Of a DNA stretch of 64,000 nucleotides, positions 31,903 through 58,573 are shown in pieces. The notes under the pieces were generated by a model. That model was not told the origin of the DNA. It did no database searches and was given only the letters and a program-made list of their open reading frames with translations. The stretch spans positions 5,759,501-5,823,500 of the forward strand of contig NZ_CP030850.1 in assembly GCF_003325355.1 (NCBI RefSeq). The letters run 5' to 3'. The stretch comes from Runella rosea. GTDB lineage: Bacteria; Bacteroidota; Bacteroidia; Cytophagales; Spirosomataceae. Both the position numbers and the translations under genes were made by a program. Each line of letters starts with the position of its first letter. Within the stretch, counting starts at the first letter, position 1.

Positions 31903-31911
31903 AAAGTCACC

Positions 31912-31987
31912 CCGTTGTACCGCAGTCTTCCAACAGGAGAATGCGTACTCAAGATAAACAAAGTGTTTGTAACACGGCAAGTGCTAA
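31912..31987. repeat. hairpin repeat, copy 2
   Basis: First of two tandem 76-bp units (period 84 bp). The hairpin has arms GCAGTCT (31922-31928) and AGAATGC (31938-31944), extended outside by GTAC pairing with GTAC (31917-31920, 31945-31948) across a one-base bulge. It is followed by GATAAACAAAGTGTTTGTAAC. Confidence 0.85.
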
Positions 31988-31995
31988 ACGACACT

Positions 31996-32071
31996 CCGTT
32001 GTGCGGCAGTCTTCCAACGGGAGACTGCGCACGCAGGATAAACAAAGTGTTTGTAACATAGTAAGTGCCAA
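31996..32071. repeat. hairpin repeat, copy 3
   Basis: Second tandem unit. Its arms are GCAGTCT (32006-32012) and AGACTGC (32022-32028), extended by GTGC with GCAC (32001-32004, 32029-32032) across the same bulge. The downstream GATAAACAAAGTGTTTGTAAC is identical to copy 2. Confidence 0.85.
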
Positions 32072-35367: not shown

Positions 35368-38193
35368 ATGAGTGCTAAGTTTTACCTTTTTCTTTTTCCC
35401 TTCTATTTCTGTATTTCAGCACGCGCTCAACGGCCAATAGTAATTACCGATAGTTTGGCAGCGGTGAATGTGTGTGAATCTTCCGCTGTCTTTCAGGATA
35501 AACTAGGCACGCTGTCTTTTGAGCAAATACAAAAGCAACAATTTCAGCTTAATCAAGGTAATACATTCCGTTTTTCTTTTTCATCCAACGTGTTTTGGTT
35601 TCGATTTAGAGTGGACAACCAAAGTAAATTCAACCAAAACAACTGGTATTTTTTGTGGAGCGACGGCCTTAGCGACAATGTTGATATTTACATTCCCCAA
35701 CAAGACGGAACCTTTCGATGTTTGAAAGGCGGGCTGTTGGCGTCGGCCAAAGAAAAAGTGTACACGGGCCTTTTTCCGATCTACAAAGCGGGGGTGTTGC
35801 CCCAACAAAAAATTCAGACGTACTATGTTCGGCTGAAATCCAGCGAATCCATCAACGCTCAGTTAACGCTCATGACGCATCAGTCCTATATTGATACCAT
35901 GCCCGGGATTTTGGCCATGGTCTGGCTGGTGATTGGGATTCAGTTGTTGCGGGTACTTTACAACATTATTTTGGCGCGTTATATCCGCAATACGTCGTTT
36001 CGATGGTACACGTTCCATACCGTTATTGTGACCATTTCGGTCATGGGTTCGTTTGGGGTGGTGGGCAATCTTTTTGACGAAAATCCCCAAGTTGCGGGCT
36101 TTCTCAATGCCACTTTTTATGAGCTGATGCCCGCCACTTACACCCTTTTTATTTATTCTTTATTAAACGTAAAAAAGAACTTTCCCCGACTCCGTTGGGT
36201 ATTTTTTCTTATCATTGCGGGGAGCGCTTTGCAAATTGGAGCCTATGCTTTTGTCCCCAAAATGTACCTGCTTATTTTCAATAATTACCTCTTTCTGTTT
36301 ACCGAGGCATTTTTGATAGGCATGTGTTCTTACGCCTTCGTTAAGGGTATTTCAATAAATGGCTACTTACTGATTCCTTGCTTTTTGACCTTGGTGCCGT
36401 TTATCTTCTTGAATTTAAGGGCGTTGGGGTACATTAATTACGATTGGATTTACCCCATGATTTACCTAACCAACTTTTTGGAAATTTTGGCGCTCTCGCT
36501 GGTGTTGGGGAAAATCATCCAAGCCACGGAGCAGGAGCGTTTATCAACCCAGAAGGCGTTGTATGAAGAAAAGATGGAGGCCGAAAAACTCCATGAATTG
36601 GATGCCGTAAAAACTCGGTTTTTTACCAATATTTCGCATGAGTTTCGCACGCCGCTCACGTTGTTGGTGGGGCCCGTGGCCGATCTACGTAAAAAATATC
36701 CCACCGAAAAAATCATTCCCGCTATGGAGCGGAATATAAATCGGTTGCAAACGCTGATTAATCAACTCCTCGACTTGTCGAAGTTGGAAGCTAAACAGCT
36801 CAAAGTAGAAACGGTCGAAAGCGATATGGCCGTTTTTATGCAGCAATTGTTAGCTTCGTATGAGTCATTGGCGCAAAACCGAGAAATCTTTTTTCATTAC
36901 TCACAAAACTACGCAAGTTTTCGAGCCTCTTTCGACGCCGACAAAGTAGAGAAAATCCTGACCAATCTGCTGTCCAATGCCTTTAAATTTACCCCCGTCA
37001 ATGGACGCATCGTAGTCTCCATTGATTATACCATCAACTCTGTTTCTCTGCAAGTTCGCGATTATGGGATTGGGATGGAAGCCGAGCGACTTCCGCGTAT
37101 TTTTGACCGATTTTACCAAGTCCAAACCGATAATCAGCGTAATTACGAAGGCACTGGCATCGGATTGGCGTTGGTCAAAGAGCTTGTCGAGGTACTGAAT
37201 GGGCAGATTTCGGTGGAAAGCGAACCAGGAAAAGGAACCACTTTTGTGGTCATTTTGCCTTTAGAGGCTGCTTCTGTGGACTTACGTCAACCCAAAGAAA
37301 ATGTTATCGTTCCCCATTCTGGGGCTGGAATGTTTCTTTCCGCCACCGACAGGCATGAGGCGATACTGGCGAACGGAGATGGAGACTCTTCTGCTTTTAT
37401 GGACGGATTGGTCAATCACTCAGGAAGGCCCATTTTGCTCATTGTGGAAGACAACCCCGACCTGCGAGCCTACGTGCGGAGCATTTTTGAGCAGCGCTAT
37501 CAAATCGTGGAAGCCGTAGACGGAGAAGATGGACTGACCAAAGCTTTTGAGCACATTCCCGACGCGGTGGTGTGTGATTTGATGATGCCTCGCCTCGACG
37601 GTCTGGCTTTCTGCCAACTTCTGAAGACCGATATTCGTACTAACCATATTCCGGTGGTGATGCTCACCGCCAAAGCCACCCTCGACGACCGCCTTGAAGG
37701 CCTAAAATTGGGGGCGGATGACTATCTTTCAAAACCCTTTAACCGAGATGAACTGGAAATACGACTACAGAACCTGTTGACGCAAAGGCAAACCCTGCGC
37801 CTGAAATACCTCCAACAGATGCTGGAAATTAACCCCATCCCCGCGGAGGAGGCAGTGCTTTCTATTGATGAACAGTTTTTGGAGAAAGCCCGGGCCGTTG
37901 TTGAGGAACACTTGGGTGACAGCCGTTTTGATGTTGAACAATTCTGTAAGGAGATGAGCATGAGCCGCACCCATTTACACCGCAAACTGAAGGCCCTCAC
38001 GGAATCTTCAACGACCGAATTTATCCGAAAAATACGGTTGCAGCGGGCGGGCCAATTGCTACGGCAGCGGGTGGGTACGGTGTCGGATATTGCATATCGG
38101 GTTGGTTTTGAGAGCTTGCCTTACTTTTCAAAATCATTTCAGGAACAATTTGGGGTGTCCCCGTCCGACTATATCCGAAGCTCGGAAGTCTGA
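35368..38193 (+). CDS. hybrid histidine kinase with 7TM-DISM sensor and AraC output (HK1)
   Basis: A 941-residue one-protein two-component system. Order: signal peptide (to about 21), 7TMR-DISM extracellular domain (about 30-170), seven membrane helices (about 185-395), HisKA with the phospho-acceptor H424 (TRFFTNISHEFRTPLT), HATPase with the N and G boxes (NLLSNAFKF, GTGIGLALVKEL), REC with D737 (CDLMMPRLDG) and the K in LSKPF, and an AraC-type DNA-binding domain (about 840-941; FCKEMSMSRTHLHRKLKALT). It senses an unknown ligand and activates target genes directly. Its DNA-binding domain is closest to that of HK2. A phased repeat array lies just downstream, which may be its own target. Confidence 0.94.
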   Translation: MSAKFYLFLFPFYFCISARAQRPIVITDSLAAVNVCESSAVFQDKLGTLSFEQIQKQQFQLNQGNTFRFSFSSNVFWFRFRVDNQSKFNQNNWYFLWSDGLSDNVDIYIPQQDGTFRCLKGGLLASAKEKVYTGLFPIYKAGVLPQQKIQTYYVRLKSSESINAQLTLMTHQSYIDTMPGILAMVWLVIGIQLLRVLYNIILARYIRNTSFRWYTFHTVIVTISVMGSFGVVGNLFDENPQVAGFLNATFYELMPATYTLFIYSLLNVKKNFPRLRWVFFLIIAGSALQIGAYAFVPKMYLLIFNNYLFLFTEAFLIGMCSYAFVKGISINGYLLIPCFLTLVPFIFLNLRALGYINYDWIYPMIYLTNFLEILALSLVLGKIIQATEQERLSTQKALYEEKMEAEKLHELDAVKTRFFTNISHEFRTPLTLLVGPVADLRKKYPTEKIIPAMERNINRLQTLINQLLDLSKLEAKQLKVETVESDMAVFMQQLLASYESLAQNREIFFHYSQNYASFRASFDADKVEKILTNLLSNAFKFTPVNGRIVVSIDYTINSVSLQVRDYGIGMEAERLPRIFDRFYQVQTDNQRNYEGTGIGLALVKELVEVLNGQISVESEPGKGTTFVVILPLEAASVDLRQPKENVIVPHSGAGMFLSATDRHEAILANGDGDSSAFMDGLVNHSGRPILLIVEDNPDLRAYVRSIFEQRYQIVEAVDGEDGLTKAFEHIPDAVVCDLMMPRLDGLAFCQLLKTDIRTNHIPVVMLTAKATLDDRLEGLKLGADDYLSKPFNRDELEIRLQNLLTQRQTLRLKYLQQMLEINPIPAEEAVLSIDEQFLEKARAVVEEHLGDSRFDVEQFCKEMSMSRTHLHRKLKALTESSTTEFIRKIRLQRAGQLLRQRVGTVSDIAYRVGFESLPYFSKSFQEQFGVSPSDYIRSSEV

Positions 38194-38221
38194 CTCGGCC
38201 CAAATACGGAGTTAGTATGGA

Positions 38222-38261
38222 AAGCCGCTCGGTCTTCATCGGAAGATTGAGCGGCTTTTTT
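38222..38261 (+). terminator. Rho-independent terminator after HK1
   Basis: A 16-bp stem (38222-38237 with 38242-38257, two G-T pairs), four-base loop and a T run. Confidence 0.92.
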
Positions 38262-38286: not shown

Positions 38287-38367
38287 GGAACATAAGAGTA
38301 AAGGCTTGGAACATGAGAGTAAATGATTTTTTGAGCGGTGAAACATAAGAGTAAAAGAGTAGAACAT
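38287..38367. repeat. 21-bp-phased direct repeat array (array 1)
   Basis: Three near-identical 16-bp units GGAACATAAGAGTAAA start at 38287, 38308 and 38340 (the second has G for A at one place, the third begins GAAACAT), and a partial fourth (AGAACAT) starts at 38361. The steps are 21, 32 and 21 bp, close to 2, 3 and 2 helical turns. Such phasing is expected of a cooperative binding site. It lies between the HK1 terminator and the TonB-domain gene at 38435. Confidence 0.75.
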
Positions 38368-38434
38368 CCGTGCTAACGCTCGTCTGATGCGCTTACCGAC
38401 CTTTGAGTAATCTTAAACTCATCGGTTCTCGCTT

Positions 38435-38899
38435 ATGAAAAAGTCCATTTTGGGCATTGTTGCAGGAGTTAGCTTCTGCCTGTCCGCCTATTCTCAAGAA
38501 GTAAAATCGCTTAAATATTCCGCTCTCCCTTCCGACGGCATCATCGCTTTTACAGCCCATGATGCTTTGCCCGCATCCCGCATCAATCCCGACGCTGATG
38601 CCGCCGATATTTCTCCCAATAAGACTTGGTTACGACAATTTTCGCAAGCGCTGATGGCGCGTATTGCGTATCCTGCCCGGGGAAAAGCCTACAACATTGC
38701 GGGAAAAATGTTCGTGAATCTTGGCATTGATTCAAATGGAAGGATAAACGTTCTTTCGTTTGACCAATCTTTGGGGCGCGATTTTGAGCAGTCCATCATC
38801 GACGCGGTAGGTCGCGTTTCGCGTTCAAAACTTAAACCCCTTGCGCTGCCTTTGACGGGGCAGCTTCATTTTACACTTCCCGTACACTTTACTCCTTAA
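38435..38899 (+). CDS. exported TonB C-terminal-like domain protein
   Basis: A 154-residue protein with a signal peptide (MKKSILGIVAGVSFCLSAYSQ). Residues about 70-150 have the TonB C-terminal fold pattern: RIAYPARGKAYNIAGKMFVN, GIDSNGRINVLSFDQSLGRD, then the ending HFTLPVHF; the 'YPxxA' and 'G(k/r)v' positions are conserved. There is no membrane anchor or Pro-rich linker, so it is not a complete TonB energy transducer; small exported proteins of this kind are common in Cytophagales with unknown role. It follows HK1 and directly follows the repeat array, so it is a candidate target of that kinase. Confidence 0.75.
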   Translation: MKKSILGIVAGVSFCLSAYSQEVKSLKYSALPSDGIIAFTAHDALPASRINPDADAADISPNKTWLRQFSQALMARIAYPARGKAYNIAGKMFVNLGIDSNGRINVLSFDQSLGRDFEQSIIDAVGRVSRSKLKPLALPLTGQLHFTLPVHFTP

Positions 38900-39120
38900 G
38901 TATTTGGTCCTCCTTGATTTTGCTGGTAAAGACAAGATGGAAAGTTGTGTAATATTTTGATAATCAGTTGTTTAATTAATTTAGGAAGGGTTGATACAAA
39001 AGAAAGAGTACGGCGTTTTGGGGAATTTTAACACTCCAGTAAACCATTGGCCCGTCGATGCTAACGAGCTGGGAGAGCAGGCCGTAATTTTGAAGAACAA
39101 CGCTTAAATACTTTTGGTAA

Positions 39121-39258
39121 ATGATAATAGGGACCGTTTTTCTCGGAGTTGTGATGGGTTTATTTTTTGGTCTAAAGAAACTAAAACGGCCAAGAAAAGA
39201 CCTGTACGCCCCCTCTGAATATTTGAAACACTTACGAAACTCTTCAAAAAAAATATGA
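39121..39258 (+). CDS. 45-residue membrane peptide upstream of GT2
   Basis: A small frame (MIIGTVFLGVVMGLFFGLKK...) with one predicted membrane helix (residues 2-18) and a basic tail (KKLKRPRK). A stop codon lies directly before its ATG, which fixes the start. It ends in ATGA overlap with the glycosyltransferase gene, so translational coupling is likely and supports its being real. It may help place or stabilise the glycosyltransferase; this is inference. Confidence 0.55.
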   Translation: MIIGTVFLGVVMGLFFGLKKLKRPRKDLYAPSEYLKHLRNSSKKI

Positions 39259-40673
39259 AGAAAAATTACTCAACGATGGATTCATTTGCCCGAACGCAAC
39301 TTGGGCATCTTGGTACCAAATCAGCCCTTTATCGGATTCAGTGGCCCACGCGGATTTTCGCCTTTTTGGGTTGGATTGGGCTTTTAGTTGTGGGAATTTA
39401 TTACCCGATTACCATAGGATTAGCCCTTTTCGGTGTAGGTTTTCTAAACTATGTGCTTTTGTTGAGCTTTCGCATCAGCAATAATTTTTTTACGAAGCCA
39501 ACAACGGATAGCGCCATCACGGGCCAATTGCCCTCGTGGCCGAGTTTTTCCATTTTGGTACCGCTCAAAAACGAGGACGAAGTCATTCATGCCACGTTGC
39601 GGTCTATCGAAGCGCTCGACTATCCCCAATATTTGATGCAAGTCATCATTGTGGTGGAAGAAACCGACCAGCTGACCCGTCGTAGCCTTCGCACCCTTAC
39701 GTTACCCGATTTTTTTAAAGTGTTGTTGATTCCAGCGCTTCCCCCTTACACCAAAGGTCGGGCGCTTTTGCACGCCTTACCCATTGCGACTGGAGAATAT
39801 ATTACGGTGTACGATGCTGAAAGCCGCCCTGAACCCAGTCAGCTCAGAAAAGCGGCATTGGCCTTGGTTGGGGCGAAAGAAACGACTTGTTTTCAGGCCA
39901 AAATCAGCATTTCCAACCGTTCGTCAAGCTGGATAAGTCGTCATTTTGCGGGCGAATATTACGAATGGTACGAGCGCCACATGCGAGCGTTGTCGGCGCA
40001 GGGTTTGCCTTTTGGGTTGGGCGGTAATTCCTTCTTTTTGTCCAAAATTGCTTTAGAAAAAGCGGGTGCCTGGGATCCCTTCAACGTGACGGAAGATGCG
40101 GATTTGAGCGTGCGGCTCATTGAGCAGAGCGTAAAACTCCAGCTTTTGGAAAGTCTAACGACTGAAACTTGCCCTGATTCGGCTACTAACTGGATTAATC
40201 AGCGGACGCGTTGGAACAAGGGACTGTTCATCACTCAACTGGTACATTTACGACGCACGCTCCTCAGTCGTGGTTTTGGTCTCGAAGGTTGGTCAAGCTT
40301 TTGGTTGCCAATGATTAGTTCGGCCCTTACTCCATTTTTCAATATTTACATACCCATCTTCATGATAATGAGTGATTTGTCGTATGCCACAACAACGGTA
40401 ATGAGCATCAGTTTATGGCTATTGTTGGCCTTTAATTTGGGGTGTTCGTGGGTGATTAACTTCAAAACCTACCGCCAACTTGGCATAAAACAATCCGTTT
40501 TGGGCATCTTTTGGGATACTTTTCGCTATTTGTTTCTGCACCTCAGTGCGGGTTTTAAAGCCTACGGCGAATATTTTTTGGCCCCGATGCATTGGCACAA
40601 AACCGACCATACCGAGCCAGAACAATCCAATCGCCCTGCTCCTGCACCCGAAGCTCAATTTTCTTTATCCTAG
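39255..40673 (+). CDS. membrane glycosyltransferase family 2
   Basis: A 472-residue processive-type GT2. After two N-terminal membrane helices (about 30-75) the GT-A domain shows ILVPLKNEDEVI, the acidic motif YDAESRPE (D187), TEDADLSVRL (D281) and QRTRW (Q316-W320), which is the QxxRW signature of cellulose, hyaluronan and related synthases. Three or more C-terminal helices follow (about 350-440). It should build a polysaccharide or transfer sugar across the membrane; the donor is not readable. The gene ends 30 bp before the first giant surface protein and begins in overlap with a small membrane peptide, so glycosylation or anchoring of that protein is a possible role. Confidence 0.88.
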   Translation: MKKNYSTMDSFARTQLGHLGTKSALYRIQWPTRIFAFLGWIGLLVVGIYYPITIGLALFGVGFLNYVLLLSFRISNNFFTKPTTDSAITGQLPSWPSFSILVPLKNEDEVIHATLRSIEALDYPQYLMQVIIVVEETDQLTRRSLRTLTLPDFFKVLLIPALPPYTKGRALLHALPIATGEYITVYDAESRPEPSQLRKAALALVGAKETTCFQAKISISNRSSSWISRHFAGEYYEWYERHMRALSAQGLPFGLGGNSFFLSKIALEKAGAWDPFNVTEDADLSVRLIEQSVKLQLLESLTTETCPDSATNWINQRTRWNKGLFITQLVHLRRTLLSRGFGLEGWSSFWLPMISSALTPFFNIYIPIFMIMSDLSYATTTVMSISLWLLLAFNLGCSWVINFKTYRQLGIKQSVLGIFWDTFRYLFLHLSAGFKAYGEYFLAPMHWHKTDHTEPEQSNRPAPAPEAQFSLS

Positions 40674-40703: not shown

Positions 40704-43700
40704 ATGGTATTTTATAGACATTTACTAAACGTTATGGGGCTGATGTACTTAGGGATTTTATCCGTCATCGCCACACCCACATTAACCCCAAACAAACATC
40801 TTCCAGTAGCCGTAGCTACCGTTACGTGGGTGGGCGGAACTGCGGGTTTTGCCCATGATTGGAACACACCTTCCAACTGGTCTACCAATGTGGTACCTAC
40901 CAATACCGATAACGTAACGATTCCAGGAAGTTTGGCGCATTATCCGGTGCTGAACACCAACGTCTCCATTCAAACCTTGAACGTAGAAGCAGGTGCAACG
41001 CTTACCGTCAATGCCAGTAAGGAGTTGACCATTGCGGGCATTGGGGATGATGTTAGGCTGATTGTTTTAGGGACGGTCGAAAACAACGGAACCATTACCG
41101 TTAACCAGATCACTTCCAATACCGCAAATGCGATGCAGTTGTCTGGGGACGGGCAGTTTAACAATAACTCAGGGGCTACCCTGTCAGCCGCCACTATAGG
41201 TTTTTATGGTATTCGAGTAGAAGGCAATTCAGTATTGCTAAACCAGGTCGGTGGTACAATTGGCGCTGCAGGGTTCTCGGGTTCCATCTTTTTGTCAGGT
41301 AGTGCCTCTCCTGAAAGTGTACAAAATCATGGAAAGATGACCTTGGGCGGCCAGATAGAAAAATACGCGGGAACGTTCCACAATTACCCTTGTGGGGTGG
41401 TAAGCCTTCTCGCAGGAGAAGTGTATAACAACGGCGGACAAATCATTAACGAAGGTTTTTTCAGTGCTGCTGCTAATCTCAATGGCCCTGCGGCAGATTT
41501 TATCAACAATGGCATTATTTACATTGGCGGAGGCTCGGCTTCTTATACCAACAACAAAATCAGAATCTTCAACAATGCTCTGTCAACCGGCATTTTTGAA
41601 TTTGGAGCCTCCAACGACCTGACCGTATCGGGGATTTATAAAGATGATGCCGCTACGGCTTTGGCAGGAGATTACAATCAGGCGAGCAATACCTTTACGC
41701 ACTTTGGCTTGCTGGTTGGTTCGCAAACGCTCTATGCCAAAATTACCCGTATGGGCGGTAGTTGTCCGCAAATTGTACCCTTTACGTTTGAGGTGACTAC
41801 TGCTTCTACTTTCACTACGCAGCCAATTGACCAAACGGTGTGCCTGGGGAGCTTGGCTACATTTACGGTCGTAATAGCCAACGCGGCAAGTTACCAATGG
41901 CAGCTCAATACGGGAAGTGGCTGGAACAACGTCCCCGCCGCTGAACCTTATTCCAACACAACCACCGCTACCCTCAATATTAGCAATGTGACGGGCTTAG
42001 ACGGTTACCAATACCGCTGCGTAGCGAGCAGCACAGGCGGGGCGACGTCAACCTCTACGACGGCCACCCTGACCATCGGTACAGGAGGAGGCTCAAACCC
42101 AACGGGCACGCTTACATGGACAGGCTTAGTGGATACCGATTGGAACACGGCCTGCAACTGGTCACCTTCGAGCGTACCCACGGCCACCAACGATGTAGTG
42201 ATTCCGAATACGACCAACAAACCCACCATCAACACCGCTGCGGTAGCTAAATCGGTGGAGGTGCAAGCGGGGGCAGTGTTAACCATTGCTGCTACTAAGG
42301 GTTTGACTATCAATGGGTCAAGGTTGGTAGGTTTTGTTAGTAGTGGTTTGTACAATGCAGGGACAATTCACAACAACGGACAACTTATTCTGGGGAATAC
42401 GGGTAGCGTAGGTGATTTCGGCATTCTAAGTATAGGTACTTTCAATAACAATAGTGGCGCAGAAATAGCCATTGACCGTGCAACCAGCCAGGGGGTAGTT
42501 AATGCCACAGGAGGTATTTTTGCCAACGCAGGCAAAATGACCATTGGGGCAAGCGCAAGCGTAGGATCCGTGGGGCTTGGCAACCAAGCCACTTTTAACA
42601 ATAATACAGGGGGAGAGATAACGATTAATAGAAGTAGTAGTAGTGGCTTATACAATGCGGTAGGGGGTACTTTTACCAATGCCGCCAAAATTTCTATTGG
42701 AACTACTACTCCTCCTCTCACCCTTGGCCTTGAGAATAGGGCTATTTTTATTAACAATGCGGGTGGAGAAATTACCATTAACAATACAACGGCGTTTGGT
42801 TTAATAAATGCTAATGGTAATTTATCGATGTATCCACCAGGTACTTTTACGAATGCGGGTAAAATTAGTATTGGCACTACGGCATTAAGTAGTGCAGGGT
42901 TATCAAATTCAGGTGGTTCTACTTTCAACAACAATACGGGAGGAGAAATCAAGATTGATAGGTCAACATTTGTAGGTTTGCAGAATGACGCAGATTGTAT
43001 TTTTAACAATGCCGCTAAAATCACCATCGGAGCTACGGCAAGTGTGGGAACGTATGGAATTATAAACGACGGAACAATCAATAACAATGCTTGTGGCAAA
43101 CTCATTGTAGCGTCGGGTATTTTTCAAAGCAATGCCTCCCGAACCATCACCAATGGGGGCTTAATACAAGTGGCTAACAGCCTCGAAAACAGTGGTACTT
43201 TCACCAACAACGGCGTACTAAAATACGGCTCGCTAACAGGTACTGTAACCAACGCAACCAACTCATCACTCATCGTTAACAACACCCCTACGCCAATTTT
43301 TACCTACGGCGGCAGTTACGATGGTGTTATCGATGGCATTTTTACCGATGCGGCCGCGACTACCTCGGCGGGGACTTTTACGACTCCCAATACGTTTGTG
43401 CCTTCGGGTTTGCCCGCAGGTACACAAACGTTGTACGCCAAAATCACGTCTCAAGGTGGGTGTAGCTATGTGGTGCCGTTTACGTTTGTGATTGCCCAAG
43501 GAGATTATACTTGGACGGGTGCTTTGTCTAAAGATTGGAATACCCCTGGCAACTGGCTGGTAGGGGGTGGTATCCCTGCCGTTGCTCCAACTTTTGGTTC
43601 ACAAACGGGACATCGTACGCTTATTCCCGTTGTTGCCAATGGTAATTACCCTGAGGTGACCGCTGCTTCAGGCGCTCGCTCGGTCACTATTGAGGCCAAT

Positions 43701-46700
43701 GCAAGTTTGACCATTAAAAGCACGGGCAATTTGAAAATTGTGGGGAGCGATACCGACGGCGTGACCAACGCAGGAACGTTTACCAACAACGGAACGGTAC
43801 TGATTGACTCGTCTTATAACGACGGATTTGTGAACCAAACGGGCGCTTCACTCATCAACACCAGTGCCTTCACGGTTCAGAGGGGAACGGGCAACCGCCT
43901 CGAAAACTACGGCAGCCTCAACAACAGTGGTACATTTACCGTAGGTGGCGGCCTTGGTACTGCCATCCTCAACCACCCTGCGGCCACGATAACCAATAGT
44001 TCTACTTTTGGGGTGAGTGGAGGATTGACGGGTGGCATACTGAACCAAGGTACAGTCGATAACTCGGGGCAGTTTACGATGACGGGGGGGGTATCGGGGA
44101 CGTTATTTATCAACCAAGAAACGGTAAAGAATCGCTCAGGAGCTACAATGAGCATACGTAACCATAATTCACTACTTTTTGATAATCAAAAATTGGTGGA
44201 AAATGAGGGGAGTTTGAATATAACTGATGGACAAGACAGAGGGGCTATCAACCGACAAGGAGCGACGCTACGGAACAAGGCGGGAGGAACATTGAGAGGG
44301 GGTGGGGTTTTGAGAGCCATATTTAGAAACGGCGGCCTCCTTGAGAACTACCATGTAGTGACCTTCTCTGGTTCTAATGATACCTGTTTCTATAACTTAC
44401 CCACAGGAGAGGTTAAAAATGAGGCTACTTTTACAATTGGAAATATTGGTGGGGTAAATGGGACGATGATCAACTTGGGGAAATTTATCCACGGGTCGGT
44501 AGGAGCTTTAAATTTTAGTGGTGTGGAGAGTGTAGGATTTAAAAACGGAGGTACATTTAAGAGTACGGCAGGTTGTAGTATTTCTGCAATAGGCGGTGTG
44601 GTAGGCTTGCTGCAAAACATGCCTAATGCTCTGTTTGAAAATAAGTGTGCTACAACATTCAGCTCAGGAGGAAACCCCATTGTCAACCAAGGGCGATACA
44701 CTCATACGGCGGGTAGCTTTACGGTGGGGAATTTGAATATTGTACTGCAAAATTCAGCTTACGCGGAGGTTAACGTACCTTTTATCTCAATAGGGGAGTT
44801 GGGCCAATATTTTGTCAATAGCGATACGTTGATTTTGGGACCTCAGACAACCGTTACAACCAACCCTTCTTCAAAACACGGTACGCCACTGACCAATACA
44901 AGCACAGGTTATGTCCATTCGCAGGCTGATTTTACGATTAGTTCTACCACGTCCATTATCGAGAATGCGGGCAAAATGGTGTTAGGGAGCCAATCAACGC
45001 TTATCGGCACCGACATGGGTACGCCCATCATCAATACAGGAAACCTGACCAACGAAGGCAGTGTCAATTTTAACCGCTTTGGAGGTTATGGGATTGATAA
45101 CTCGGGGACGTTTGTCAACAAAGGACGTTTTGAAACGGGCAACAGTGACAAAAGCATCCACAACAACGGCGGTACCATCGAAAACTCGGGCGTGATGGAA
45201 ATCGACTCCGTATTTCGGGATGCGGTCTTGCAGAAAGGTAGCGGCAGTAGCTTCACCAATACCGCTACTGGCCAAATCAACATTGATTTTGTGTTTGGCA
45301 ACGGCATCAACAACACCGCTGGTGGTTTTGTCAACAATGGTGAAATTATGATTGCCCAAACTGACACCGTTGCGCTGTCGGGTATCAACAATGCAGGTAC
45401 GTTCCTAAACAACAAACTCATGCGCATCGGTGGCGCAGGCAAAATCAAACAGCACGGAATCTATAATACGGGTACGCTGACCAATACCACCGACAGCCGG
45501 ATAGTTCTCCAAAGCGCCGAAGGGGCGGGTATCACCAATCAGGGAGGGACGGTGACCAACCAATCCTGCGCCTACATCGAGTCAACCCCCTTGATTCTCA
45601 ATGCCGCAGGGACGTTCAGTAACGCAGGTATCATTACCAAGCGTCCTGACAACCTCATGGCAACCAGCAATATAAGTACTAATTCAGGCACCATCGTCAA
45701 TGAAGATACCGACGATTTTACCGTGACGGGCACCAACAGCGGCGCGGTCGTGAGTTCGGCCACCATTGCTTATGTCGGCTCACCTTTTGCCAACACTGGC
45801 ACGGCTACCGTCGCGCTTACTGGAGCCACGGGCGGAGCCTTCAGTGCAACCCCTTCTGGGCTATCGCTCAATCCTACTACGGGAGAAATAAATCTGGCAG
45901 CTTCTACGCCTCAAAGTTACGTTATTACCTATACGATAGCGGCGGCGGGTGGCAGTTGTCCGGCCGTGACCGACACGGCATGGGTGTCTATCGTGGCACT
46001 CAATATGGGCCAAATCATTTACGTGAATAGTTCAAACACGTCCCCAGGTCAGGATGGCAGCAGTTGGAGCAAAGCTTTTGCAAGTTTACAGGCAGGTTTG
46101 AGCGCCGCGTCGGCATTGACAGGGGAAGATATTCAAGTGTGGGTGGCCGCAGGAACCTATAAGCCGGGTACGTTGCGCCGAGATGTGTTTGAGATTCCTT
46201 CGGGGGTGCAGGTGTATGGCGGGTTTGCGGGTAGTGAAAGTGAGTTGAATCAAAGGAATTGGCGCACGCAAAAGACGATTTTGAGCGGAGAAATCGGCAC
46301 ATCGGCCTTGAGCGACAATGTCAACCACGTAGTGGTATTGAGCAATACCAATGAGCAGACCCGTTTGGATGGTTTTGTGGTTGAGAAAGGCTACGCTGAT
46401 TATTTTGTGCCTACGCAAGGAGTGGACTTATCAAACCCGACCTTACTTTCTTCAGGGGGCGGAATTTTGGTGCTTAATCGGAGCCGAGGTTTGATTACTA
46501 ATTGTGTGATTACCAATAATCGCGCGATTGGCGGTGGCGGTATTTTGCTCAGAGATAGCAGTGAGGTAAGTATTACAAACAGCATTATCGTAGGCAACGA
46601 AGCGACCTTTGGAGGCGGCATATACATGGAGCGGGCGGGTAGCCCCAAGCTAGAGAATGTGCTGATTGTGTCCAACCGAGGAGGTTTGTACCTCAACTAT

Positions 46701-47345
46701 AGCGCCCCCGTGCTGACGCATTGTACGATAGCGTCGAATTACAGCAGCAGCGGTACGGGCGGTATTTTCAACACAAATTCATCGGCGACTTTGCAAAACA
46801 GTATCTTATGGGGGAATAGTGCTCCTCAAACGACGGCGGGCATCAGTATTCGCTACAGCATTGTGCAAGGCGGATTTGCGGGCGTGGGCAATGTGAATCG
46901 GGATCCGTTGTTTGTGAAGGCTACCCCGCTGGGATTGTCACCGACGGTCAATTTGGGGGATTATCGTTTGCAGGCGTGTTCGCCAGCTGTCAACGCGGGC
47001 GACAATGCTTTGAGTACGTTGAATCTGGATTTGGACGGCAACGTGCGCCCTTATACAAATGGCTTGGCCATTGTTGATTTGGGGTGTTATGAAAGCCCGA
47101 GTACGGGCGGTGGTGGCCCTGCCACGTTGAGCGTGACTGAGCCGATAACGGGCGGCACGGTGTTGAAAACAGGGGGGCGAATCACGGCAACGAATCAGGT
47201 ATCGGGCGCTACGGTAGAGTACCGAGGTAGTCAGTCAGTAGCGCTGTTGCCTGGTTTCGGCGTTACCGGAAGCGTGTTTGAGGCCGTCATTGGCGGGTGT
47301 GATACGGTTGTTCCTACAACTAGTGAGAATAATTCGCAGAAATAA
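40704..47345 (+). CDS. giant modular secreted/surface protein 1
   Basis: A 2213-residue exported protein (signal about 1-24). Order: TWVGG...DWNTPSNW module (about 35-100), beta-repeat region, Ig-like domain (about 370-455; QLNTGSGWNNVP, YRCVAS), a second LTWTG...DWNTACNW module (465-540), short 'FNNNTGGEI' repeats of about 40 residues (545-860), an FTYGG...QTLYAKIT module (about 865-930), a long NNSG-type beta region (1000-1690), a parallel beta-helix of the pectin-lyase kind (IYVNSSNTSPGQDG, 1771-2120) and a C-terminal domain (about 2150-2202) with SVALLPGFGVTGSVFEAVIGGC. That end resembles a small Bacteroidota C-terminal domain with a terminal Gly-Cys. Adhesion is likely. A LytTR gene starts 11 bp after it. 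Confidence 0.88.
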   Translation: MVFYRHLLNVMGLMYLGILSVIATPTLTPNKHLPVAVATVTWVGGTAGFAHDWNTPSNWSTNVVPTNTDNVTIPGSLAHYPVLNTNVSIQTLNVEAGATLTVNASKELTIAGIGDDVRLIVLGTVENNGTITVNQITSNTANAMQLSGDGQFNNNSGATLSAATIGFYGIRVEGNSVLLNQVGGTIGAAGFSGSIFLSGSASPESVQNHGKMTLGGQIEKYAGTFHNYPCGVVSLLAGEVYNNGGQIINEGFFSAAANLNGPAADFINNGIIYIGGGSASYTNNKIRIFNNALSTGIFEFGASNDLTVSGIYKDDAATALAGDYNQASNTFTHFGLLVGSQTLYAKITRMGGSCPQIVPFTFEVTTASTFTTQPIDQTVCLGSLATFTVVIANAASYQWQLNTGSGWNNVPAAEPYSNTTTATLNISNVTGLDGYQYRCVASSTGGATSTSTTATLTIGTGGGSNPTGTLTWTGLVDTDWNTACNWSPSSVPTATNDVVIPNTTNKPTINTAAVAKSVEVQAGAVLTIAATKGLTINGSRLVGFVSSGLYNAGTIHNNGQLILGNTGSVGDFGILSIGTFNNNSGAEIAIDRATSQGVVNATGGIFANAGKMTIGASASVGSVGLGNQATFNNNTGGEITINRSSSSGLYNAVGGTFTNAAKISIGTTTPPLTLGLENRAIFINNAGGEITINNTTAFGLINANGNLSMYPPGTFTNAGKISIGTTALSSAGLSNSGGSTFNNNTGGEIKIDRSTFVGLQNDADCIFNNAAKITIGATASVGTYGIINDGTINNNACGKLIVASGIFQSNASRTITNGGLIQVANSLENSGTFTNNGVLKYGSLTGTVTNATNSSLIVNNTPTPIFTYGGSYDGVIDGIFTDAAATTSAGTFTTPNTFVPSGLPAGTQTLYAKITSQGGCSYVVPFTFVIAQGDYTWTGALSKDWNTPGNWLVGGGIPAVAPTFGSQTGHRTLIPVVANGNYPEVTAASGARSVTIEANASLTIKSTGNLKIVGSDTDGVTNAGTFTNNGTVLIDSSYNDGFVNQTGASLINTSAFTVQRGTGNRLENYGSLNNSGTFTVGGGLGTAILNHPAATITNSSTFGVSGGLTGGILNQGTVDNSGQFTMTGGVSGTLFINQETVKNRSGATMSIRNHNSLLFDNQKLVENEGSLNITDGQDRGAINRQGATLRNKAGGTLRGGGVLRAIFRNGGLLENYHVVTFSGSNDTCFYNLPTGEVKNEATFTIGNIGGVNGTMINLGKFIHGSVGALNFSGVESVGFKNGGTFKSTAGCSISAIGGVVGLLQNMPNALFENKCATTFSSGGNPIVNQGRYTHTAGSFTVGNLNIVLQNSAYAEVNVPFISIGELGQYFVNSDTLILGPQTTVTTNPSSKHGTPLTNTSTGYVHSQADFTISSTTSIIENAGKMVLGSQSTLIGTDMGTPIINTGNLTNEGSVNFNRFGGYGIDNSGTFVNKGRFETGNSDKSIHNNGGTIENSGVMEIDSVFRDAVLQKGSGSSFTNTATGQINIDFVFGNGINNTAGGFVNNGEIMIAQTDTVALSGINNAGTFLNNKLMRIGGAGKIKQHGIYNTGTLTNTTDSRIVLQSAEGAGITNQGGTVTNQSCAYIESTPLILNAAGTFSNAGIITKRPDNLMATSNISTNSGTIVNEDTDDFTVTGTNSGAVVSSATIAYVGSPFANTGTATVALTGATGGAFSATPSGLSLNPTTGEINLAASTPQSYVITYTIAAAGGSCPAVTDTAWVSIVALNMGQIIYVNSSNTSPGQDGSSWSKAFASLQAGLSAASALTGEDIQVWVAAGTYKPGTLRRDVFEIPSGVQVYGGFAGSESELNQRNWRTQKTILSGEIGTSALSDNVNHVVVLSNTNEQTRLDGFVVEKGYADYFVPTQGVDLSNPTLLSSGGGILVLNRSRGLITNCVITNNRAIGGGGILLRDSSEVSITNSIIVGNEATFGGGIYMERAGSPKLENVLIVSNRGGLYLNYSAPVLTHCTIASNYSSSGTGGIFNTNSSATLQNSILWGNSAPQTTAGISIRYSIVQGGFAGVGNVNRDPLFVKATPLGLSPTVNLGDYRLQACSPAVNAGDNALSTLNLDLDGNVRPYTNGLAIVDLGCYESPSTGGGGPATLSVTEPITGGTVLKTGGRITATNQVSGATVEYRGSQSVALLPGFGVTGSVFEAVIGGCDTVVPTTSENNSQK

Positions 47346-47356
47346 TTCGTAGAAGA

Positions 47357-47731
47357 ATGACAGCAACGGCAGGATTAGTGGTGGGAGAAAGCGTGGTGTA
47401 TTTGCCACGCTTTCAGACCAAGAGGGGCGAGCGAGCAATCGACCTGAAACAAATTGTGTACTTAAGTGCGCTGAGCAATTATACTATTTTTCATTTAAAC
47501 ACGGGAGAAGAGGTAATGACCACGCTATCGTTGAGTAGCTATGCTTTGCTGTTAGAAACTCGGGGTTTTATTCGGGTTCATAAATCGAACCTTTTGAACG
47601 GACATTATTTGGGTAAGTGCCGATTGGTGCGGAGTGGGGAGTTGATGTTGCCCAATGGAAAAGTCATTGAGGTGGCCCGTCGGAGGCGAAGCTCATTAAA
47701 GAAAATAGCAAAAGAGAAAGGTAAGGAATGA
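47357..47731 (+). CDS. stand-alone LytTR transcriptional regulator (1)
   Basis: A 124-residue protein consisting of little more than a LytTR DNA-binding domain: VVYLPRFQTKRGERAIDLKQIVYL, NYTIFHLNTGEEVMTTLSL, FIRVHKSNLLNGHYLGKCRL, MLPNGKVIEVARRRR. There is no receiver domain. It starts 11 bp after the giant protein gene and should be translated from the same mRNA. LytTR proteins bind direct repeats spaced about two helical turns apart. A close homologue (63240-63644) sits in the same position behind the second giant protein, with the same core residues. The target is likely the adhesin genes; not shown. Confidence 0.9.
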   Translation: MTATAGLVVGESVVYLPRFQTKRGERAIDLKQIVYLSALSNYTIFHLNTGEEVMTTLSLSSYALLLETRGFIRVHKSNLLNGHYLGKCRLVRSGELMLPNGKVIEVARRRRSSLKKIAKEKGKE

Positions 47732-47853: not shown

Positions 47854-47886
47854 TTTGCTGTTTTAGTGGTAATAATCATATATTTG
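47854..47886 (+). promoter_or_regulatory. promoter of HK2
   Basis: TTTG at 47854-47857, a 21-bp spacer and TATATTTG at 47879-47886 match the Bacteroidota sigma-A consensus TTTG-N19-21-TAnnTTTG. The start would be about 47893, leaving a leader of about 55 bases to the ATG at 47947. Confidence 0.75.
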
Positions 47887-47946
47887 ACGTTAAACTCAAC
47901 TTGCGGAATAACAAAATACGTGCAAGTTTGGGGCAAGTACAAGTAT

Positions 47947-50736
47947 ATGAAAAACCTCGCCTTTCTTGTTTTTTTGCTACCGTTATGGGGAAGTGGTCAG
48001 ACGCTTGATCTTGTTTCCAATACCGAAACCTACCCGATTACTCCTGCGGCGGGTTTGTACAAGGATATTTCTGGACAGCTTCCATTTGGGCAAATCCAAA
48101 AGCAAAAGTTTGAAATAACGCGTAAATACGGACTTCTGTTTCCTTTCAGCGAGGCGGCTTCGTGGCTTAAAATAGTATTGACCAATCGCAACCCAGCGCG
48201 TAAGCAATGGGTGTTGGAGTGGAACAACCCCATGGGAGAGTCCGTTGACTTTTATATTTCCACTCCCAACGGCACCTTCCAAATCAAAAAAATGGGAATG
48301 GTCAATACTGAGAATCGGATTTTAATGGCCGAAAACAGACCTTTTGTCGAGTTTGATTTGGGTTTTCAGGAAACCAAAACCATCTACATCCGCGTAAAAG
48401 GGCAGCGGGCGCATTTTGCCTCGGTCAATCTCTATTCTACGCAGGCCTACAATCGCCACGATTTGATTCAGACCAATGTCTACGGCTTCATGTCGGGGGC
48501 CATCGCCGTTCGTTTATTTTACGTGTTTTTATTGGCCTTGTTTGCTGTCAAAGACAAGGATTTTAGGCAGTATTCGGTGCTTTTGGTGGTTCGTTCGATT
48601 GCATTTTGGGGGTTGCATGGTATTTTGAGCAATTTTTTTTCGAATCCGTCGACCGCTCTTACGGTCAGTTTTCTTTCGTCGCATATCCTGCCGCTAGGGT
48701 TGATTGTCGCGTTTAGGGTCATATTTCCAGGTAGGCGATTTCCTAAATGGGTCGAAAGCGTCCTAAAACTCATTATGGTATTAAACATTCTTTTGGCGAT
48801 CATTATCTTATTTGGGTATCGCTGGCAGTGGATTTTGGCAAGTACCTACTTGGTGATTGCCACGCAGGTGTTTATTTTGGCCATGTACGTTTTTGCTATT
48901 ATCAAAAAATACCCCATTAATTGGAATTATTCAGTGGCGTATCTGCTTGGCATCGGCAGTTATATTTTTGTTCAAATGCGGTTGGTGGGATGGGTGAGTT
49001 TCCCGTGGATATCGCCGGTAGCACTGCTATTTTTTATCCTTGAATTTCTGGTCTTTGGGTATTTTTTGGGAAGAATTATCATTGATTATGAGCGTAATCG
49101 GGCGTTGTCGGTGCAAGAATTGGCCTTTACCAAAGAACAAACTCAAAGGGTGCAGGAATTGGATCGTTTGAAAACCCGTTTTTTTACCAATATCTCCCAC
49201 GAGTTTCGTACGCCGCTCAGCCTTTTGACGGGGCCACTGGAAGAAATCCAACAAAAGTACCCCAAAGAAGGAATGATACCGATGATGCAGCGCAACGTAA
49301 AGAGATTGCAATCGCTTATCAATCAGTTGCTTGACTTGTCTAAGTTAGAGGCGGGAGAGTTTAAGGTTGAAGCGCGTTACGGCGATATTACGGCGTTTTT
49401 TGGGTATATTTTCTCGTCTTTTGAGTCGTTGGCCCAACACCAAAATATTCACTTCAATGTAAGCCAAAGTCGTCGTTCTTTTGAGACGTATTTTGATGCT
49501 GACAAACTCGAAAAAATTACCACTAATCTCCTTTCAAACGCCTTTAAATTTACCCCTGCCAACGGCAGAATAGACATGCGGGTTTTTTATCAAACCATTG
49601 ATGGAGAAGATAGGCTTTTGTTGGAAGTGGAGGACAATGGCATCGGGATTGATGCCGAGCGATTGCCCCGAATATTTGACCGTTTCTACCAAGTTGACGA
49701 TACCGCCCAACGCAAATTTGAGGGGACGGGTATCGGATTAGCTTTGGTCAAAGAGTTAGTGGATTTGTTCAAAGGAAAAATCACGGTCAAAAGTGAAGTG
49801 AATCAAAGTACGGTTTTTCGGGTAGAGTTGCCGTTGCCAAAACCAAAAAATGGCCTAAATACGGAGTTTATGCCCAAAATTGCCCGTGCGTATCCCCCTA
49901 ATTCAGCGGAGCCGTTGCAACCTGAGCGCCTTGCGGTAGCGGATTTGCCTCAGGACGCTACCAAGCCCATGTTACTAATTGTCGAGGATAATCCCGATTT
50001 GAGACAGTATCTGTACGGTTTATTTGAGCCGCATTACCAAATTGTAGAAGCCATAAACGGCCAAAATGGCTTAGATTTAGCTTTTGAGCTGGTGCCCGAT
50101 GTCGTAGTCACCGACCTGATGATGCCCCTGCTCGATGGCTTTGGATTATGCCAACGACTAAAATCCGACCAACGCACCAGCCATATACCAGTGGTGTTGC
50201 TGACGGCCAAAGCCACCTTGTCTGACCGCTTAGAAGGCTTTGAACTAGGAGCAGATGACTATTTGCAAAAACCGTTTAATAAAGAAGAATTGTTGGTGCG
50301 GGTCAGGAATTTAATTCAACAGCGGGCTATTCTTCGGCAGAAGTTCAGCCTCATGGAACCTCCCATGCCGAAGCTAACCGCTGGAGCACCCGAAAATTTA
50401 GATAATCAATTCCTTAAGAAAGCCCAAGAGATTGTAGAGGTTCATTTGGGCGATAGTAGCTTTGATGTGGAAGAATTCTGTAAGGAAATGGGCATGAGCA
50501 GGACCAATCTGCACCGTAAATTGAAGGCTTTGACGGATGCTTCTACGACCGAATTTATCCGTACAATACGTTTGCAACGGGCAGCGCAATTGCTGTTGCA
50601 ACGTACCCATACCGTGTCGGAGATTGCCTACCGGGTTGGTTTTGAGAGTTTACCTTATTTCTCCAAATCGTTTCAGGAGCAGTTTGGAATGCCGCCGTCG
50701 GACTATTCCCATAAAAAAAATGAAGCACTCAATTGA
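47947..50736 (+). CDS. hybrid histidine kinase with 7TM-DISM sensor and AraC output (HK2)
   Basis: A 929-residue homologue of HK1: signal peptide (MKNLAFLVFLLPLWGSGQ), 7TMR-DISM extracellular domain (about 25-160), seven membrane helices (about 175-395), HisKA with H418 (TRFFTNISHEFRTPLS), HATPase (NLLSNAFKF, GTGIGLALVKEL), REC with D723 (VTDLMMPLLDG) and LQKPF, then an AraC domain (FCKEMGMSRTNLHRKLKALT) of the same subclass as HK1. The ATG at 47947 was chosen because the promoter at 47854-47886 lies downstream of the earlier open codon. It follows the first adhesin-LytTR unit and may regulate it. A strong terminator is not seen after it. Confidence 0.94.
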   Translation: MKNLAFLVFLLPLWGSGQTLDLVSNTETYPITPAAGLYKDISGQLPFGQIQKQKFEITRKYGLLFPFSEAASWLKIVLTNRNPARKQWVLEWNNPMGESVDFYISTPNGTFQIKKMGMVNTENRILMAENRPFVEFDLGFQETKTIYIRVKGQRAHFASVNLYSTQAYNRHDLIQTNVYGFMSGAIAVRLFYVFLLALFAVKDKDFRQYSVLLVVRSIAFWGLHGILSNFFSNPSTALTVSFLSSHILPLGLIVAFRVIFPGRRFPKWVESVLKLIMVLNILLAIIILFGYRWQWILASTYLVIATQVFILAMYVFAIIKKYPINWNYSVAYLLGIGSYIFVQMRLVGWVSFPWISPVALLFFILEFLVFGYFLGRIIIDYERNRALSVQELAFTKEQTQRVQELDRLKTRFFTNISHEFRTPLSLLTGPLEEIQQKYPKEGMIPMMQRNVKRLQSLINQLLDLSKLEAGEFKVEARYGDITAFFGYIFSSFESLAQHQNIHFNVSQSRRSFETYFDADKLEKITTNLLSNAFKFTPANGRIDMRVFYQTIDGEDRLLLEVEDNGIGIDAERLPRIFDRFYQVDDTAQRKFEGTGIGLALVKELVDLFKGKITVKSEVNQSTVFRVELPLPKPKNGLNTEFMPKIARAYPPNSAEPLQPERLAVADLPQDATKPMLLIVEDNPDLRQYLYGLFEPHYQIVEAINGQNGLDLAFELVPDVVVTDLMMPLLDGFGLCQRLKSDQRTSHIPVVLLTAKATLSDRLEGFELGADDYLQKPFNKEELLVRVRNLIQQRAILRQKFSLMEPPMPKLTAGAPENLDNQFLKKAQEIVEVHLGDSSFDVEEFCKEMGMSRTNLHRKLKALTDASTTEFIRTIRLQRAAQLLLQRTHTVSEIAYRVGFESLPYFSKSFQEQFGMPPSDYSHKKNEALN

Positions 50737-51160
50737 GGCGGAAGGATAGAGTTAAGGGTTCTGAGGAAAAACCGCATCCTTTCAGGATAAAAATGGCAAA
50801 TAGCTGACGGTTTGGGAGCGTTAGAAGTTTTTTGATAAACTCCTTTATCGCGTGTTTCACGGGGTAAATTTAGGAGAAATAGGCAGATTTTAAGTAGTGT
50901 CCTATTTAGGATATGATTATTGTATGTTATGGCTTTATGGGCTATTTTTGGGCAATTCGTTGGTGGTACCGCAATGATATGCCGTTTTTTTATAAAAAAG
51001 GTCATTTGGTTGCACTGACGAAGATTTGAAATGACTTTTCAGGTGGATTTTAAAAGTCTTTTTTGTATTCCTAAAAGTGTTTTTGGATAAATGTCGGATG
51101 TCGCCGTGTGGGTATATTTTACGGAGCAATGACCACCAAAATATAAAGAATTGGATAACT
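50737..51160. other. intergenic region between HK2 and HK3
   Basis: About 420 bases, AT-rich, without a gene that I recognise. It holds several TTTTAAAAGT- and TTTTTGG-type stretches but no clear palindrome, no copies of the 21-bp array units and no full TAnnTTTG promoter. It should carry the promoter of the HK3-HK4 operon. Confidence 0.5.
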
Positions 51161-54160: not shown

Positions 54161-54180
54161 AAAAGGCGATTGAAAACAAA

Positions 54181-57144: not shown

Positions 57145-57254
57145 GTTCAAAATGAGGAAAAGAAAGTTCAAAATGAGGAAGAGAAATCGACTTCTGTTCT
57201 GAGAGCCTTTGTGCCCTTTTTTTTTCGGTCCAGAATGAGGAAGAGAAAGTCCAG
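57145..57254. repeat. 21-bp-phased direct repeat array (array 2)
   Basis: Two units GTTCAAAATGAGGAARAGAAA start at 57145 and 57166, exactly 21 bp apart. A third (CAGAATGAGGAAGAGAAAG) lies 62 bp farther on, about six turns. GTCCAG at 57228 and again at 57249 repeats with the same 21-bp step. The ATGAG core is shared with a unit of array 1. The array lies after HK4 and 207 bp before the cytochrome c gene, in a 481-bp interval with no gene. Confidence 0.75.
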
Positions 57255-57460
57255 TTTGTGCTAACACTTGGCGAGCAAAATCGACCAATTTTGTCTCATT
57301 CACTCACCCAAACAGTGTTGTGTTTTCCTAGACCGTTTTTTAGAACCATACTCAATTTATGATGAAATACGTATTGAAGCGCTCTTCATTGCGGCGAGTC
57401 GAGATCGCCTGATGATGCAGAAGTCTATACGTATCGTTGCAAACTCTATCACAACGAAAC

Positions 57461-58423: not shown

Positions 58424-58573
58424 GTGCGCGGTTTTTGTACCTATTAACAACCTTTCGTGGTAGAAAGAGGAAAAGTCGGGGGGCGATATTATAACCTAAA
58501 ATCAATCCCCGCTTTTCAGTTCTCCCTCGAAGTTAATAAGCCTATCTCACCCTTAGCATTTTCTTTCTACCAA

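Follow-up and report, generated by a model that had tools for sequence, protein, structure and literature searches.

The AraC site araI consists of 17-bp half-sites with two boxes each, set as a 21-bp direct repeat whose promoter-proximal site overlaps the -35 element. In B. thetaiotaomicron, 16-bp sites with a 5-bp spacer have been predicted for three mannan-type systems, and an average distance of 21 bp has been predicted for 16 hybrid two-component systems (HTCS) (Ravcheev et al. 2013, PMC3878776). The binding of fragments of BT4124 and BT4663 to the bt4114 and bt4662 promoters has been examined by gel shift (PMC11253607). LytTR direct repeats are 9 bp long and separated by 12 bp, which gives a 21-bp step (PMC6193735), and the Bacteroidota promoter consensus is TAnnTTTG at -7 and TTTG at -33 (PMC7366714).

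Here we analyze an array of direct repeats in Runella rosea, within a 64-kb stretch of DNA (the window; Table 1). Its sites of ~16 bp repeat directly at a 21-bp period, as in operators of AraC-output HTCS, and it starts 93 bp 3′ of the stop codon of HK1, a single polypeptide that carries sensor, kinase, receiver and AraC domain. The sequence-only reading had reported three 16-bp copies and a fourth with steps of 21, 32 and 21 bp, and we confirmed these at 38287, 38308, 38340 and 38361. It took the fourth copy to be partial, but this copy is no decayed fragment: the half-site is conserved and has a variant box at its 3′ end. The boxes of this half-site, GAACAT and GTGCTAA, are found at the same place in two relatives (G001 and G006), and the arrays of two others (G011 and G012), in the interval from the homologous gene to the surface-protein gene, end in GGGACAT...TTGCTAA.

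Table 1. Features of the two arrays and of their gene neighbourhood, in window coordinates.
Feature	Position	Strand	Basis
HK1: 7TMR-DISM sensor, HisKA, HATPase, receiver, AraC-type (HTH_18) output	35368..38193	+	Pfam
Probable HK1 terminator: inverted repeat, 17-bp arms, 88% complementary, with T run	38221..38261	+	inverted-repeat search, sequence
Half-site A1 GGAACATAAGAGTAAA, distal pair	38287..38302	+	sequence, repeat search
Half-site A2 GGAACATGAGAGTAAA, distal pair	38308..38323	+	sequence, repeat search
Half-site A3 GAAACATAAGAGTAAA, proximal pair	38340..38355	+	sequence, repeat search
Half-site A4 AGAACATCCGTGCTAA, proximal pair, at the expected place of the -33 element	38361..38376	+	comparison with relatives
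-7 element GACCTTTG, 5/6 to TAnnTTTG, 21 nt after A4	38398..38405	+	consensus from PMC7366714
TonB_C-like gene (154 aa) that opens the presumed operon	38435..38899	+	profile searches
Degenerate second pair, 5′ of the glycosyltransferase	39028..39043 and 39049..39064	+	sequence
Conserved 45-aa small membrane-like protein	39121..39258	+	similar 43-aa ORF in L025
GT2-family glycosyltransferase	39255..40673	+	Pfam
2213-aa repeat surface protein with GCX_COOH stack domain	40704..47345	+	profile search
LytTR-domain protein	47357..47731	+	Pfam
HK2: DISM hybrid kinase, AraC output, helix MSRTNLHRK	47866..50736	+	Pfam, tblastn alignment
HK4: hybrid kinase, AraC output, helix MTSVQLRRK	54151..56979	+	sequence comparison
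Second array, B-type, steps 21/62/21	57145..57264	+	sequence
B half-sites GTTCAAAATGAGGAAA, GTTCAAAATGAGGAAG, GTCCAGAATGAGGAAG, GTCCAGTTTGTGCTAA	starts 57145, 57166, 57228, 57249	+	
-7 element CAATTTTG, 5/6, 21 nt after the last B half-site	57286..57293	+	

The array is the sole triple of its kind in the window (14-mers, one mismatch, within 110 bp), and no such triple was found in 60 sequences of 64 kb drawn at random under an order-3 Markov model. The exact 14-mer AACATRAGAGTAAA has 3 matches in the 7.16-Mb genome, all inside the array, compared with 0 for its reversed control. We rejected the 16-bp unit as a dispersed repeat; genome-wide, it is unique to this array.

With araI the array has in common two-box half-sites, a 21-bp direct repeat and a proximal site over the -33/-35 region; it differs in its four half-sites, predicted two-component control and Bacteroidota -7/-33 promoter. 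The B. thetaiotaomicron HTCS operators resemble it in their direct repeats, 21-bp distance, predicted dimer on one face and AraC-output kinases near the genes, and there too motif similarity tracks kinase similarity (PMC3878776). In those systems a motif has two sites and the genes are polysaccharide genes that include SusC/SusD; here the pairs stand in tandem, offset by near-integer turns, the sensors are of the DISM type, the presumed operons encode surface proteins, the distance to -7 is conserved within the genus, and helix and box are linked by class. No SusC/SusD polysaccharide-utilisation regulon lies 3′ of the array, where the genes are TonB_C-like, GT2, giant surface protein, LytTR and HK2; SusC/SusD genes are a trait of the regulon and not of the operator. 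BT4124 and BT4663 are comparable in that they are hybrid kinases whose receiver-AraC fragments were used in gel shifts with target promoters that contain predicted sites (PMC11253607). LytTR direct repeats have a 21-bp step and a position 5′ of the promoter in common with the array, but differ in their 9-bp units, their consensus and the lack of an AraC protein (PMC6193735). To call the operator undescribed, as had been done from the sequence, was too strong, since 21-bp direct repeats were predicted for Bacteroides HTCS in 2013 (PMC3878776). As far as the open-licence literature shows, the new elements are the tandem phased pairs, the -7 spacing in the genus, the dependence of box A on helix class and the setting of DISM kinases beside surface-protein genes; that literature yielded nothing on DISM with AraC, HTCS start sites, AraC half-sites or Runella LytTR.

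Several genes around the array deserve comment. The 154-aa protein scores 25.3 bits against Pfam PF03544 (cut-off 24.6) and 26.7 against NCBIfam TIGR01352 (cut-off 27.1). The 45-aa protein is unannotated, overlaps the glycosyltransferase start and has a YAPxEYLxxLRN tail in common with the 43-aa ORF after the G011 array (L025 7728-7859). TAATTTTG stands 20 nt after the degenerate pair, a counterpart of which was not seen in the stretches of G001 and G006 compared. The inverted repeat after HK1 was not among the results of the consensus terminator scan. The first recognition helix of HK1 is MSRTHLHRK in the tblastn alignment, nearly identical to that of HK2, and HK2 is a candidate second reader of the array. 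Both giant proteins (40704-47345 and 58457-63187) have repeated WTG..xTDWNxxxNW segments and a C-terminal GCX_COOH, and each is followed by a LytTR gene. An 84-bp tandem repeat (31908-32068, 1.9 copies, 85% matches) lies between ORFs 31225 and 32328.

We compared 13 genomes of the genus, with R. rosea itself as G000, and 222 genomes of the family. The 154-aa gene occurs in 5 of the 13 genus genomes: R. rosea, G001 (77%), G006 (79%), G011 (38%) and G012 (37%). The array stands 5′ of this gene with steps 21/32/21 in G001 and 21/31/21 in G006; in G011 and G012 one pair precedes the gene and a 21/31/21 array lies between it and the giant surface-protein gene. The sites are thus conserved at orthologous genes in all four relatives, as those of an operator would be. 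Random spacing of the units in relatives had been set as a refutation of an operator, and where we looked for it we found conserved spacing. A pair-pattern search of the 222 family genomes gave 16 exact pairs in 8 genomes; six of the 13 genus genomes account for 14 of them, and G118 and G119 for one each. With at most 1 mismatch the pattern was found in 47 of the 222 genomes, and outside the genus the reversed control matched, by eye, at least as often. The pair matches in G119 and at G203 C1:4399720 look like chance, and the one at G000:C1:4882048 is AT-rich, and the ORFs listed for its 2.5 kb include no kinase; 14-mer matches in G003 C7 and G009 fall, by eye, in or at the start of coding sequence.

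The relation of the array to HK1 varies among genomes. In G003, two copies of GGAACATTAGAGCAAA at a 21-bp step come directly after the HK1 orthologue (58%), and elsewhere in that genome a four-site array stands 5′ of a giant surface protein. G118, a genome of another genus, has a hybrid kinase with 44% identity to HK1; 3′ of this kinase come a four-site array, an ORF that looks LytTR-like by eye, and a giant surface protein, in this order. The HK1 orthologue of G011 and G012 lies ~3 kb from the arrays, and no array stands directly after the G005 HK1 orthologue or the G002 HK1-like fragment. HK1 is absent between the peptidase gene and the array in G001, G006 has the same junction, and both genomes carry an HK2 orthologue in the same gene row as the array. 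Because these two genomes keep the array without an adjacent HK1, HK1 is not required next to it.

The second array in the window follows HK4, which is 45% identical to HK1 across HK1 residues 15-935. Its box A is GTTCA or GTCCA, unlike that of the first array. The 21/62/21 steps are matched in G001 and G006, and G010 has a B array after a related kinase. This array stands 5′ of a cytochrome c-like gene (called from CxxCH by eye, with NCBIfam scores far under the cut-off), a giant surface protein and a LytTR gene, as a parallel copy of the first module. HK3 (51077-54160) is a hybrid kinase of the same AraC helix class as HK4; it aligns with HK1 solely over residues 385-935, which indicates another sensor, and has no array directly 3′.

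The offset between pairs is 52 or 53 bp in six A arrays, 72 bp in G118, 74 bp in the B arrays of G002, G003 and G005, and 83 bp in the B arrays of R. rosea, G001, G006 and G010. At 10.5 bp per turn these offsets are 4.95-5.05, 6.86, 7.05 and 7.90 turns. Weak upstream copies are found at -54 and -73 in G173 and at -42 in G003 B2, weak single copies off phase at -78 in G060 and -108 in G139, and 8 of 26 arrays have no upstream copy at 12/16. Since the upstream copies of these other arrays are weak, partly off phase or absent, the same-face argument is limited to arrays with two full pairs, and for those the comparison supports the same-face phasing first proposed from the sequence. At L035, L045 and L046 (G002, G003 and G005), the distal pair, which begins 10 bp past the stop codon of the kinase, is separated from the proximal pair by a GC stem and T run that resemble a terminator.

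To place these arrays among related kinases, we surveyed 56 distinct flanks, up to 900 bp 3′ of AraC-output kinases, at loci chosen as holding relatives of HK1 and not as a random sample. A direct repeat at lag 21 with at least 13/16 matches was present in 21 of the 56, compared with 0.8 in shuffled flanks and 0-4 at each other lag from 14 to 44; the remaining 35 had no lag-21 repeat at this threshold. Four of the 21 were judged unrelated, leaving 17; the lag-21 repeat 3′ of HK2 with its two orthologues, and that of L102, were dropped as low-complexity or unrelated. A prospective set of 40 further flanks gave some repeat in 17 and an accepted one in 13, leaving 27 flanks with none accepted; the repeats in L168, L169, L185 and L198 were likewise dropped as low-complexity or unrelated. 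We chose the 29 kinase-operator pairs analyzed below (16 earlier, 13 prospective), and set their register, by eye. The set excludes close orthologues of its members (the G001, G006 and G010 B arrays; L098; L105), the ambiguous L142 and the A arrays of G011 and G012, whose kinase is 3 kb off. Pattern matches just 3′ of kinases in G183 and G188 have no 12/16 repeat and stand outside the 29 pairs.

The array had been assigned to a promoter region from its position between HK1 and the TonB-domain gene, and the comparison backs this; the array lies after the probable terminator of HK1. A sigma-70-type promoter scan found nothing, as expected for the phylum. In a hand-anchored list that includes close orthologues, a G078 proximal site chosen by eye, and the glycosyltransferase pair and G003 B2, both entered through their -7 element, all 27 promoters have a -7 element 20-21 nt after the proximal half-site that matches TAnnTTTG at 5/6 or better, and 12 match at 6/6. 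The -7 element lies 36-37 bp from the start of the last half-site in A arrays, and the last box B of the first array covers the place of the -33 element. Among the 29 kinase-adjacent pairs, 17 have a -7 element 20-21 nt downstream where ~0.5 are expected (null rate 0.018): 12 of the 16 earlier pairs and 5 of the 13 prospective ones. The 12 pairs that fail include that of G078, which is the distal one, that of G003, with TATGTTTG ~21 bp further on, and four HRK pairs of other genera with TACTTTGC, TACTTGCC or TACTTGCG at the same place. A proximal site over -33/-35 with a fixed -7 distance is the arrangement of a class II activator-dependent promoter, which we predict here from sequence.

With all half-sites set in one 16-base register, box A differs between classes of the first recognition helix. 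Kinases with an SR..(L/M)HRK helix have mostly GnnACA or GnnACC, those with (T/S)(S/A)VQLRRK have GTYCA in the proximal pair, S(P/Q/S)SQLLRK goes with GCYG in 4 of 6, and arginine at the third helix position goes with GTCC in 3 of 3, with one copy reading GTCT. Over the 29 pairs, helix and box A distances correlate at 0.60, and at 0.54 in a partial Mantel test controlling for the rest of the DNA-binding domain (0 of 5000 permutations), compared with a partial value of 0.09 for box B; with one row per distinct helix the box A value is 0.55 (n=16). Within SR..HRK, the largest class, the co-variation vanishes (partial -0.13, 3797 of 5000 permutations), so that the helix/box rule is a rule of classes. 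The 13 prospective loci give 0.49 for box A (1 of 5000), and there box B co-varies too (0.44). We take the DNA-touching residues of the recognition helix to be those assigned from MarA; in the SoxS alignment the varying positions fall in the first recognition helix.

Box A predictions were fixed before the 40 further flanks were fetched, and 10 of the 13 accepted arrays belonged to predicted classes. The prediction was right in at least one copy in 7 of the 10 (5 of 7 HRK, 2 of 3 SQLLRK) and in both copies in 2 of 10, with misses off by one or two bases. Six prospective VQLRRK kinases had no operator-like repeat in the flank. The comparison with relatives suggests which part of the repeat would be read by the protein. 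A tentative reading, to which we give somewhat less than even weight, is that hybrid kinases of the family carry a readable code, in which the class of the first helix, S-x-x-x-(L/M)-x-R-K, would set box A, box B would be nearly fixed, and tandem pairs at 5, 7 or 8 turns would form a two-dimer switch for surface-protein operons. As part of this code, HRK would specify nACA or close to it, VQLRRK GTYCA, SQLLRK mostly GCYG, and a third-position arginine GTCC. Our confidence in the code was lowered because both copies fit in just 2 of the 10 prospective arrays.

We consider it very likely that the array is an activator operator for the AraC output of the 7TMR-DISM kinase HK1, and probably of its paralogue HK2, driving a surface-protein/glycosyltransferase operon. 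An AraC-type output domain was the predicted reader from the outset, and the comparison supports this prediction. In each 16-bp half-site, the first helix-turn-helix would read the upstream box A (GGAACAT) and the second the downstream box B, which is GAGTAAA or GTGCTAA. One dimer would bind a pair of half-sites at the 21-bp step, and the two dimers, separated by about five helical turns, would lie on one face of the DNA. With the last box B in place of a -33 element and the -7 element GACCTTTG 21 nt further downstream, the proximal dimer, once bound, would recruit RNA polymerase (class II activation). This would switch on an operon of the TonB_C-like gene, the small membrane protein, the glycosyltransferase, the giant surface protein, the LytTR gene and HK2, and give feedback through HK2.

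Another reader of the same sites can be considered. HK2 could be the sole reader, its neighbour HK1 standing next to the array incidentally; the gene rows of G001 and G006, which hold the array and an HK2 orthologue without HK1 there, and the HK2 helix MSRTNLHRK fit this. However, the G003 HK1 orthologue is directly followed by a site and the order of kinase then operator recurs, HK1 orthologues lie near the arrays of G011 and G012, and a 14-kb stretch of G011 has no HK2-like gene after the surface-protein and glycosyltransferase genes, which makes this reading unlikely. Alternatively, the repeats could be sites of the operon-encoded LytTR protein (47357). LytTR genes lie 3′ of both giant-protein genes (63195 is 70% identical to 47357), and an ORF that is LytTR-like by eye follows the G118 array. 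Three half-sites, when taken on the minus strand, have the sequence TACTCTTAT or TACTCTCAT and resemble the streptococcal LytTR sites ACCTCTTAT (PMC6193735). Against the LytTR consensus, three stretches of the second array match at 8/9, yet matches of at least 7/9 number 14 vs 11.1 and 15 vs 14.8 in base shuffles, no clear excess, and we did not find 9-bp units of that consensus 12 bp apart on the promoter strand. The fourth site A4 does not fit the LytTR pattern, in the first array it is the strand opposite the gene that carries the likeness, the conserved stretch is 16 bp including GGAACAT with a box A that tracks the AraC helix class, and none of the 15 listed ORFs of at least 110 aa in the G011 stretch with arrays is LytTR-like by eye. 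We regard a LytTR operator as very improbable.

The repeats could also differ from our reading in what they do. A recent tandem duplication without function would explain why the copies are near identical in this genome and the unit genome-unique; it is refuted by conservation, since G001 and G006 keep both the spacing and the sequence of the array 5′ of the 154-aa gene, and G011 and G012, in which this gene is just 37-38% identical, have related arrays before or just after it. We give it almost no credence. The distal pair could instead be a repressor or looping site, as in araBAD, and not the place of a second activating dimer. Offsets between pairs that vary by near-integer turns (5, 7, 8) would suit protein-protein contact or looping, but the proximal pair is at the position of a class II activator and one-pair arrays exist, such as the upstream array of G011, and we consider this improbable. 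An activator operator with two dimers, read by HK1 and probably HK2, is the reading that we prefer.

On this activator reading, the array would link 7TMR-DISM kinases with operons for giant surface proteins; such a regulon differs from the polysaccharide loci of Bacteroides. Many Bacteroidota hybrid kinases have no known targets, and this genome alone yields 71 matches to HK1 (E 0.001 or better), some of which are not AraC-output hybrids. Should the helix/box rule hold, the targets of such kinases would be predictable by sequence and could be tested with short reporter fragments; if the code is true, the sequence of an uncharacterised sensor would allow its operator and regulated promoter to be predicted.
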